Positions 16,639 to 35,091 of a stretch of DNA of 39,624 bases are shown piece by piece. Position 1 is the stretch's first letter, and every line of letters starts with the position of its first letter. The notes below the pieces were generated by a model. That model had not been told where the DNA came from. It did not search any database and worked only from the letters and a program-made list of their open reading frames with translations. The position numbers and the translations under genes are program-made. This stretch comes from a virus, in IMG/VR virus record IMGVR_UViG_3300042301_001828, positions 1-39,624 of that record, one strand, 5' to 3'.

Positions 16639-17745
16639 TTATAAACTTTCTATCGTTATTTCTTCTATTGAATTTCCTTGGTTGTAACTTGAAGGTTTTA
16701 CCATTATACCATATCTAGCATTAATTGCAATTCCAGTTGCTGTGTGTGTTAGGTTTGATCCTATCTGTGTAGCCAAAGATGTATCTGAATAAGGAGTTAT
16801 AGTAACAGAAGTTCCAGAAGTCACTACTTTAAATGATTGAATAACACTTGCTACCATCCATGATGCTAATTGAGTTACAGTATTTGATACGGATTGAATA
16901 AATCTAACATATTGTGGATAACAAGTTTGACAGTTACACTCAGTAAAAGTGACTGCGTTATTTCCACCACAGGCGTAGTAGTACACTCCTCCGTCACATT
17001 GGTAGAAATATCCACCACAGGCATAGTAGTATGCTCCACAGGCGTAGTAGTATCCACCACTACAATTATAGGTACTGGAATTATTACAGTTTCCAGCATT
17101 GTAAGCATTACAGTTATAGGCATATGCAGCACACCTATACCATGAAGATTTACAATATCCTGATTTATTGTAAGCGTTACAGTTATAAGCATAATTTGCA
17201 CACCTATACCAGTCAGATTTACAGTATCTATTTCCTACAACATTACAAGTATAACTCCAGCTAGCACAAGGATAGGATGGTGATGAACACGGATAGGATG
17301 GTGATCCACAAGGATAGGATGGTGATGAACACGGATAGGATGGTGAAGCACAGTTTCCTGCCACTTCGCAAGTTCCACAATTACAACCTATTAACGCTCT
17401 TTCTCCTGCACTTAAAGTGCTTGCAGATACCGATGTTTGATCAACTCCAACTCCAAACCAGTTCCCACTGTCAGTAACCCATAGTGCTGCAGTACTTCCT
17501 TGAGTAGAGCCTTTAATAGATATTGAAACGTTTTGAGTATTCATATCAACTGTAGCAGCTGGATATGAACTAGCTGCATCTACAGATACTGCTTTATTGG
17601 TAGAAACTGTAAATGTTCCCCTTATTGCACTCCACAAACTTCCGTCAGAAGATGCTCCAAGTGATCCAGTCGTATTAGCTCTATCAAATGTGTCTTTAAA
17701 AATCTTTCTTCTAGAAACTGATGGAATAATATTAACAAATTTCAT
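16639..17745 (-). CDS. Tail fibre-like protein with Cys/Tyr-rich insert
   Basis: This 368-residue protein is in three parts. Residues about 15-125 form a jelly-roll-like domain (DTFDRANTTGSLG, SLWSAIRGTFTV, ALWVTDSGNWFGVGV). Residues about 125-270 are an extraordinary insert with more than 20 cysteines. It has four SPSYPC repeats, then paired YCKS.WYRCA.YAYNCNAYN units, then YYYACGG units. Residues about 275-368 return to jelly-roll strands (IQSFKVVTSGTSVTI, IAINARYGIMVKPSS). The insert thus sits inside a lectin-like domain. It is probably a virion surface protein; the cysteines may form disulfides or bind metal. Its stop lies 9 nt before the next gene. Confidence 0.7.
   Translation of the reverse strand: MKFVNIIPSVSRRKIFKDTFDRANTTGSLGASSDGSLWSAIRGTFTVSTNKAVSVDAASSYPAATVDMNTQNVSISIKGSTQGSTAALWVTDSGNWFGVGVDQTSVSASTLSAGERALIGCNCGTCEVAGNCASPSYPCSSPSYPCGSPSYPCSSPSYPCASWSYTCNVVGNRYCKSDWYRCANYAYNCNAYNKSGYCKSSWYRCAAYAYNCNAYNAGNCNNSSTYNCSGGYYYACGAYYYACGGYFYQCDGGVYYYACGGNNAVTFTECNCQTCYPQYVRFIQSVSNTVTQLASWMVASVIQSFKVVTSGTSVTITPYSDTSLATQIGSNLTHTATGIAINARYGIMVKPSSYNQGNSIEEITIESL
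17270..17353 (-). repeat. Four 21-bp tandem repeats coding for SPSYPC units
   Basis: On the plus strand GGATAGGATGGTGAT recurs every 21 bp, starting at 17270, 17291, 17312 and 17333; the last copy has GAAG instead of GATG. Each unit codes for seven residues of the Cys-rich insert. Such in-frame DNA repeats can expand or contract by slippage. Confidence 0.85.
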
Positions 17746-31051: not shown

Positions 31052-31192
31052 CTAAAAATCTTCTTCAAAGAAATTTTCATATTCTTTGTCACTATCGCAT
31101 AGTATGCAGTATGTATCTTCCCAAGCCGTTAATTTATCACCGCAAGTTAGACATTTTAGTTTAGTAATATTTTCAAATGCTAATTCATTCAT
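31052..31192 (-). CDS. Small zinc-ribbon protein, paralogue of 31729-31851
   Basis: This is a 46-residue protein with KCLTCGDKLTAWEDTYCILC, two CxxC pairs 12 residues apart, typical of a zinc ribbon, then an acidic tail (ENFFEEDF). It shares MNEL, CGDKLT.WE and the second CxxC with the 40-residue product of 31729-31851. GAGGGG precedes the ATG and overlaps the upstream stop region, with 5 nt between the genes. The function is unknown; zinc ribbons this small often bind nucleic acid or other proteins. Confidence 0.7.
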   Translation of the reverse strand: MNELAFENITKLKCLTCGDKLTAWEDTYCILCDSDKEYENFFEEDF

Positions 31193-31636: not shown

Positions 31637-31645
31637 TTATCCACA
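31637..31645. promoter_or_regulatory. DnaA box TTATCCACA
   Basis: This is a perfect match to the bacterial DnaA box. A one-mismatch box (TGTGGAAAA) follows at 31659-31667. Confidence 0.6.
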
Positions 31646-31728: not shown

Positions 31729-31851
31729 TTAGATTTCGTATTGTTCCATTCCATCACACATAACACAGAAAATAAATTCCCACGATGTTAGCTTATCTCC
31801 ACAGTCAAAACATTCTTCATCTGTGATGTCTTCAATTAGTAATTCATTCAT
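31729..31851 (-). CDS. Small zinc-ribbon protein behind the structured leader
   Basis: This is a 40-residue protein: MNELLIEDITDE, then CFDCGDKLTSWEF, then CVMCDGMEQYEI. Two CxxC pairs make a minimal zinc ribbon, paralogous to 31052-31192. GAAAGG lies 7-8 nt before the ATG. It is the first gene after the long structured RNA (31870-32100), which would be its 5' leader when read from the promoter at 32111-32133. This raises the chance that its expression is controlled by that RNA. Confidence 0.7.
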   Translation of the reverse strand: MNELLIEDITDEECFDCGDKLTSWEFIFCVMCDGMEQYEI

Positions 31852-31869: not shown

Positions 31870-32100
31870 GCTTAGTTTTATTTGCTAGGCTCATCAACTT
31901 TCGTTGCTTATTTGCTAGGCTCACACTAAGCGATTTAATAATGGTTAAAGGGGACTAGGACACTAGCGTGAAACTGAGACGGTGAATACTGACCTCTGTC
32001 AGCGTAGACTCCGTTTGACTTGGACTTTCAATCACATTTAGACTTGCGGTCTAAACTTTTTTCTAAGCCCTAATCCCTTTTAACCACTATTTAATTTTCT
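31870..32100 (-). ncRNA. Candidate structured RNA or leader, about 230 nt
   Basis: Two folded domains are visible on the minus strand. Domain 1 is closed by a 17-bp helix (32069-32085 with 31943-31959, one mismatch and one G-U). It encloses a perfect 7-bp hairpin (32049-32055/32037-32043, 5-nt loop), a 5-bp hairpin with 4-nt loop (31998-32002/31989-31993) and possible ACGG/CCGT pairing. Domain 2 is closed by GCTTAGT/ACTAAGC (31925-31931 with 31870-31876). It holds two copies of a 16-bp repeat (31878-31893, 31908-31923) around a CAAC-GAAA-GTTG hairpin with a GNRA tetraloop. A promoter lies just upstream (32111-32133) and a zinc-ribbon gene just downstream. It may be a free ncRNA, a riboswitch-like leader or both. 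I match it to no known RNA family. Confidence 0.65.
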
Positions 32101-32110
32101 TTATAGTAAT

Positions 32111-32133
32111 AACTTAGCATACCTGACTGACAA
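32111..32133 (-). promoter_or_regulatory. Repeated early promoter, leftward copy 3
   Basis: TTGTCAGTC (32125-32133), 8 bp, TAAGTT (32111-32116) on the minus strand, with TG one base before the -10. It is the copy nearest to the PafBC consensus TTGTCRGTG. It would start the structured RNA at about 32104. Confidence 0.7.
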
Positions 32134-32203
32134 TTTCTACCTGAATCTCACTATTTGAGACACTATTTTTGTGATGTATGTCATAGAACAAATGTTCGAA
32201 CGA

Positions 32204-32323
32204 GCCGCGCCCCTGTGGATAACTTTTGTTACGATTGTTAAGAAATGCCCTGGAATCCTGTGGATAACTTGTGGATTATTGTTAACCTAATGTTAACCTA
32301 AGACACGCCCTGAAATACCAAAA
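32204..32323 (+). repeat. Intergenic module with three DnaA boxes, candidate origin
   Basis: In order: GC box GCCGCGCCCC (32204-32213), DnaA box (32214-32222), TTTGTTACGAT (32225-32235), TTAAGAAAT (32238-32246), a second DnaA box (32259-32267), a one-mismatch box TGTGGATTA (32270-32278), GTTAACCTA twice (32281-32289, 32292-32300) and GACACGCCCTGAA. Clustered DnaA boxes beside AT-rich direct repeats are typical of replication origins. Confidence 0.6.
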
Positions 32324-33232: not shown

Positions 33233-33303
33233 AGCTGCGACACGCCCGAGGGGGCGCGGCTCTGTGGATAACCCTTGTTACGATAGTTAAGAAATCCCCT
33301 GAA
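33233..33303 (+). repeat. Intergenic module with GC hairpin and DnaA box
   Basis: CGCCC/GGGCG (33243-33247, 33252-33256, loop GAGG) closes a GC-rich hairpin that contains the GC box in inverse form. Then DnaA box TGTGGATAA (33263-33271), CTTGTTACGAT (33274-33284), TTAAGAAAT (33287-33295) and CCCCTGAA (33296-33303). The hairpin may end the upstream transcript. Confidence 0.65.
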
Positions 33304-33348
33304 ATTGCCCTGAAAATTTTATAAAAATAATGTCTAATAGTCTTGTTT

Positions 33349-35014: not shown

Positions 35015-35039
35015 GGGCAGCTCGAAAGAGCCGCGCCCC
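35014..35039 (+). terminator. GC-rich hairpin with GAAA tetraloop
   Basis: GCTC (35020-35023) and GAGC (35028-35031) close a GAAA loop. GGGGC (35014-35018) and GCCCC (35035-35039) add an outer stem past a small bulge. It begins at the stop codon of 34883-35014 and uses the GC box as its 3' arm. It probably ends this transcript. Confidence 0.6.
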
Positions 35040-35091
35040 CCTGTGGATAACTTATTTAAGACTTTTAAGAAAATAGCCTGGACCCCCTGAG
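35030..35091 (+). repeat. Intergenic module with DnaA box
   Basis: GCCGCGCCCCC (35030-35040), DnaA box TGTGGATAA (35042-35050), two TTTAAGA-like blocks, then CCTGGACCCCCTGAG before the promoter at 35095. Confidence 0.65.

Follow-up and report, generated by a model that had tools for sequence, protein, structure and literature searches.

The nut sites of lambdoid phages and the put sites of phage HK022 are structured, phage-specific RNA elements of early transcripts, which are found at short range from the promoter in each of the two divergent operons and are independent of the genes downstream. At the scale of small motifs, the kink-turn consists of a 3-nt bulge with tandem G-A and A-G pairs after it. 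A further motif is the UAA/GAN internal loop (Lee, Gutell and Russell 2006, as described in PMC12550061), and GOLLD, ROOL and other environmental structured RNAs were found through covariation (PMC12286853, PMC2864571). Like GOLLD and ROOL, the element described here is a structured RNA from environmental sequence, but those RNAs are large and ornate, whereas the element is only ~62 nt long, sits in leaders and matches no Rfam model.

The window, meaning the whole stretch of DNA analysed, is the 39,624-base IMG/VR virus record IMGVR_UViG_3300042301_001828 (positions 1 to 39,624). On its minus strand, a promoter-like site leads into a structured leader of ~260 nt, a ribosome-binding site and a 40-codon zinc-ribbon gene, and the leader of the predicted leftward transcript was confirmed to hold two adjacent, separate RNA structures, termed domain 1 and domain 2. 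The region contains the following features:

32214..32267, unstranded: two DnaA-box sequences TGTGGATAA, upstream of the leader's promoter
32132-32111, minus strand: promoter-like site TGTCAGTCAGGTATGCTAAGTT (TGTCAG...TGCTAAGTT), with an extended -10 at 32119-32111
32091-31937, minus strand: domain 1, a multibranched structured RNA with a closing helix of 13+11+4 bp (leader fold z -4.8; compensated pairs against the relative L007)
32014-32009, minus strand: domain 1 helix strand ACGGAG (AUAGUA in L007), pairing with 31984-31979
31984-31979, minus strand: domain 1 helix strand CACCGU (UACUAU in L007), with double changes against L007
31931-31870, minus strand: domain 2, the twin UGAGC/CRAAUAA element (match of model R1 at 31932-31869, 75 bits, E 3e-20)
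31931-31924, minus strand: 5' strand of P1, GCUUAGUG, a helix that covaries among relatives
31923-31908, minus strand: first half-site, UGAGC-CUAG-CAAAUAA, near-invariant across 97 distinct elements
31907-31894, minus strand: P2 hairpin g-CAAC-GAAA-GUUG-a, covarying in the stem and unconserved in the loop
31893-31878, minus strand: second half-site, pairing antiparallel with the first via CUAG, with compensatory central-helix variants
31877-31870, minus strand: 3' strand of P1, AACUAAGC, covarying with the 5' strand
31864-31859, minus strand: ribosome-binding site GAAAGG, read from the sequence, outside the domain 2 element
31851-31729, minus strand: 40-codon zinc-ribbon gene, MNELLIEDITDEECFDCGDK...CVMCDG, read from the sequence
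31034-31006, minus strand: strong terminator-like hairpin with a U-run, downstream on the leader's strand and ahead of the tail genes

Promoters were called from sequence pattern, and the pattern of TGTCAGTCAGGTATGCTAAGTT has 15 copies within the window against 0.8 expected, bearing out an earlier note on this DNA that had read a repeated-type promoter pointing left. Transcription is expected to start near 32104 on the minus strand. The strand from 32110 to 31845 folds with an energy of -70 kcal/mol compared with -49.6 +/- 4.3 for dinucleotide shuffles, none of 200 of which folded as well, and the large structured RNA claimed in the same note is thereby upheld. Its description of the stretch as free of frames is right in substance: a small GTG frame of 26 codons (VSLANKQRKLMSLANK) runs across the repeats, but it was rejected as conserved coding because the repeat spacing in relatives shifts by non-multiples of 3. 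The 40-codon zinc-ribbon protein has no Pfam match. It belongs to one of two paralogous small zinc-ribbon genes (31052-31192 and 31729-31851), only the second of which is preceded by the element. In the window, the hairpin at 31034-31006 stands between the tail genes and the early leftward genes, and a scan found it in the relatives L007, L031 and L103 as well. Elsewhere in the window, a 368-codon frame at 16639-17745 stands out for its consecutive short repeats rich in cysteine, tyrosine and serine.

Over the 147 nt compared, domain 1 and its counterpart in L007 differ by nine substitutions. Within a single helix, six of them combine into three double-compensated pairs (CG>UA, GC>AU and GC>AU) and a seventh mends an A-A mismatch, while an eighth makes an A-U pair out of a G-U. 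Random placement gave three compensated pairs in 2 of 200,000 trials, which argues that domain 1 is an RNA structure under selection. The closing helix, previously described as 17 bp over 143 nt, exists but comprises 13+11(+4) bp over ~155 nt; two inner hairpins are present, not with the 7 and 5 bp assigned to them but as one of 8 bp and, on a stem of 4-6 bp, an inner one of 6 bp. Outside the window, domain 1 was found in three viral contigs only (L004/L071, L006/L167 and L007), two scans for a wider family returned just these, and the distribution suggests that it is restricted to one virus lineage. In L008, the orthologous gene has a domain 2 element directly behind its promoter without domain 1, which makes domain 1 look like an add-on. 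The ends of domain 1 resemble inverted repeats and adjoin ATTAAAT copies. A mobile element was considered and rejected, since the internal compensatory changes favour selection on RNA despite the inverted-repeat-like ends.

Domain 2 was the sole significant match when the window was searched with model R1. Its layout is P1 - UGAGC-CUAG-CAAAUAA - P2 hairpin - UGAGC-CUAG-CAAAUAA - P1', just as reported earlier in terms of a 7-bp stem, two 16-nt repeats 30 nt apart and a hairpin capped by a GNRA loop, here GAAA. The two 16-nt repeats UGAGCCUAGCAAAUAA are the two strands of one near-symmetric paired structure, joined through their CUAG cores. The former proposal of two identical sites around a GNRA loop holds up for the sites, which are two equivalent internal loops made by the repeats, but not for the loop as the key feature, since P2 loops vary. 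The repeats and the intervening hairpin recur in other viruses, often before other genes and on the other strand. Judged from these matches, domain 2 is a member of a recurrent, so far undescribed RNA family, which is widespread and occurs without domain 1 as well.

The P1 and P2 helices are free in sequence, yet covary. In a pair-count alignment anchored on the repeats, in which the P2 register is approximate, the covariation score was 0.455 against 0.112 (sd 0.013) for shuffled alignments, a value reached by 0 of 500 shuffles, and the 139 double-change cells lay far above every slid version of the alignment; per-element counts in P1/P2 register agree. Compensatory changes, whose absence in homologues the earlier note had named as speaking against its reading, were found in both domains. 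The cores vary in a complementary manner too (CUAG/CUAG, CUAAG/CUUAG, CUAC/GUAG, CUAU/AUAG, CUAGG/CCUAG, CUUAG/CUAAG and CUAAU/AUUAG), with 177 of 180 distinct cases complementary; one exception is an unrelated tandem repeat, and the other two are CUAG/CUAC combinations that look like cross-pairing between neighbouring elements. When one 5-mer was left free and the other was fixed at its last two letters only, all eight contigs returned had complementary cores. A scan for a 4-bp CUUG/CAAG core found none, and one for 6-nt cores gave a single match, an unrelated tandem repeat.

These complementary core variants leave an internal loop, UGAGC opposite CRAAUAA, as the invariant unit, with 12 near-invariant loop nucleotides per module. 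Requiring the module together with the helices gave 121 matches across 1.28 Mb of viral loci and 0 in the reversed and three shuffled controls. A head-to-head pair is the common arrangement, while single modules (L007, L012, L079, L108, L110 and L117), head-to-tail modules (L094 and L133) and triplets (L017, L033, L042, L064 and others) also occur. Like the kink-turn, the module has an asymmetric internal loop, an A-G pair and perhaps a bulge of three nucleotides (RAA), but the tandem G-A/A-G pairs after a 3-nt bulge are absent, with U replacing the G of the first pair (U-A) in practically all members. The module resembles the UAA/GAN loop as portrayed in PMC12550061 in that each module sets UAA opposite GAG (a GAN) between helices, a likeness by sequence that holds in nearly all elements; relative to that portrayal, the module adds an invariant CRAA and C as well as tandem near-symmetric units.

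The element is common among uncultured viruses. Scanning IMG/VR for the repeat pair returned at least 120 stretches, the 5-bp-core variant scan 87 (some sharing contigs with the former) and the scan with one free 5-mer 8, and a repeat-and-helix descriptor placed elements in at least 193 fetched loci, a few overlapping one another; all these counts of matches are lower bounds. Among the 28 records searched whole, 27 have one to three copies, and in four records of 97-112 kb the copies are confined to one region (97-100% read in three, 89% in the fourth). Presence in species genomes was rejected, as the 32 pattern matches among 84,980 genomes are all unrelated, mostly tandem repeats. None of 397 Actinomycetota genomes matched the element model under stricter filters, in a set without a positive control, and the cultured phages searched gave no element-like match. 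The Rfam search advised in the earlier note was run and no family matches either domain: with Rfam 15, tRNAs alone reached the gathering score in the window and ten loci, and three leader regions yielded nothing credible at E<=10. The motif sequence had no match in the literature searched. Mimicry of rRNA was also dismissed, the exact module being absent from the rRNA loci examined. WhiB genes in 17 of the 28 records and a neighbouring DUF7178 protein with relatives at <60% identity in mycobacteriophages and Gordonia phages indicate actinobacterial hosts, and the carrier viruses are probably actinobacteriophages.

A recognisable promoter lies upstream of 79 of 121 distinct elements, strict detection having failed for 42, and the element mostly begins 19-47 nt past the -10 box; in the 5-bp subfamily, 47 of 51 elements sit 35-43 nt behind it. 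Nearly all elements are followed by a same-strand gene, with start codons 25-246 nt downstream, and a minority (L107 +931, L112 and some of L309-L315) trail a gene end with no obvious promoter. Many genes of the carrier phages have their own promoter and no element, and between relatives the element is present or missing before orthologous genes (MAYTKIKN and MFLFNL families). All 34 pairs of opposite-strand neighbours among the elements are divergent and none is convergent, a result that stems in part from gene orientation near a divergent junction. Around elements, the nearest large frames are divergent in 30 of 59 cases against 136 of 822 in general.

Several other sequence features accompany these leaders. 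In a long-P2 subfamily (L015, L016, L203-L275 and others), P2 reads TGTGAN6TCACA, the CRP/GlxR operator consensus, and in 32 of 33 members exactly 52 nt separate the centre of this palindrome from the -10 hexamer of a second promoter downstream, no promoter being detected in the other. The 1.14 Mb of loci hold 315 such palindromes where shuffles have 0-2, and the long-P2 sequence may double as RNA hairpin and DNA operator. A second leader motif (L050, L065, L089 and L106) follows the same AATTAAATA start and runs stem - UAAGUC-like strand - TGTGGTACAAATCACA-like hairpin - GACACA - stem. In the window, a repeated intergenic block (GAGCCGCGCCCC...GTGGATAACTT...) stands before several rightward promoters, at 32202-32256, 33255-33305 and 35022-35082. 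The DnaA-box TTATCCACA occurs at 31637, 32214, 32259, 33263, 33973, 33996 and 35042, clustered round the divergent region, and this cluster is a possible origin or a set of DnaA-controlled promoters.

The proteins encoded downstream fall into 31 unrelated families without enrichment of zinc-type proteins (9/103 versus 51/648), so that control or sensing specific to the zinc gene was rejected. The alternatives offered originally, a new phage ncRNA or a sensing leader, are thus retained in part: a new leader element with two equivalent sites, compensatory changes and no Rfam match stands, but a sensor for the zinc ribbon is unsupported across 31 families. The Shine-Dalgarno (SD) sequence is mostly open in 69 leaders (mean 0.67 unpaired, 5 of 69 below 0.5) and no U5 run lies between element and start codon in any of them, for which reasons an attenuator or SD-occluding switch was rejected. 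A ligand-sensing riboswitch, in which each UGAGC/CRAAUAA loop would be a site and the tandem modules possibly cooperative aptamers, could account for small near-invariant loops in variable covarying helices and for one to three tandem modules. It is nevertheless improbable, as these leaders offer no expression platform, be it a terminator or a sequestered ribosome-binding site, no steady link to genes of a single pathway, and no match in the Actinomycetota genomes or true one among the species genomes. The gene-indifferent, promoter-linked placing therefore argues against a zinc-gene sensor and for a promoter-linked leader element with a conserved partner. A plain 5'-end stabiliser or processing site, where the fold shields early mRNA from decay or offers a cleavage site to a double-strand RNase and no dedicated regulator is needed, would suit the element's place early in the leaders of numerous unrelated genes; yet a simple hairpin needs neither the dozen near-invariant loop nucleotides per module nor tandem modules in defined arrangements, and this explanation is considered unlikely, if somewhat less so than a riboswitch.

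Replication offers another context, the RNA helping to start or activate it as a primer or through transcriptional activation. Within 500 nt upstream of the element, the DnaA-box reaches 1.59 per kb against ~0.1 farther off, and the element lies near a divergent junction, in one region per genome; however, the tightest cluster of G002 (five boxes) is 11 kb away from the element, boxes recur ahead of several promoters of the window and may be operators, and a same-strand gene follows nearly all elements, leaving an origin-linked transcript very unlikely. Still more doubtful is a trans-acting small RNA freed from the leader (domain 1 alone or both domains), because domain 1, albeit 155 nt long, under compensatory selection and closed by a long helix that RNase III could cut, occurs in one lineage only, and in most members domain 2 is followed straight away by a ribosome-binding site and gene.

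We regard the chances as about evenly balanced that the element is a promoter-linked cis-acting leader element, each module of which is bound by a conserved partner that sets the fate of the transcript. The structure, conservation, position and breadth of the element are observed; the transcription start, the partner, the action in cis and the output through processivity or stability are what we infer. The nascent 5' end would fold into the element soon after initiation, each UGAGC/CRAAUAA module would then be bound by a putative conserved partner (RNA polymerase, or a protein of host or phage), and the bound partner would set the fate of its own transcript through polymerase processivity or mRNA stability, with domain 1 as an extra, lineage-specific structured RNA between promoter and module. 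The promoter link, gene indifference, occurrence on both divergent arms and phage restriction together suggest a leader element read by conserved machinery, in a nut/put-like layout. Nut and put sites are alike in being promoter-proximal, on both divergent arms and gene-indifferent, while their sequence and fold are not known to match those of the element. Elements are indeed promoter-proximal on both divergent early operons, although the leftward one of L094 comes after several leftward genes. Strong terminators to read through are sparse downstream of elements, at 0.07 per kb and without enrichment, and the processivity version is the weaker for it. It is a tentative and rather less likely suggestion that the element represents a new class of RNA control, mechanistically undescribed in any phage, in which a modular near-symmetric RNA with an invariant loop repeated head-to-head or head-to-tail would work directly upon RNA polymerase or some other conserved machinery of the host while sitting at the nascent 5' end of an early transcript.

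The analysis thus yields a structured-RNA family that is backed by very strong covariation, is frequent in viruses from the environment and was not found in the cellular genomes, cultured phages and Rfam models searched. The element can serve as a sequence marker for such virus genomes, and the repetition of its invariant loop puts the identity of the binding partner within reach. A part in the control of early transcription in these viruses is suggested by its location close to the divergent control region.
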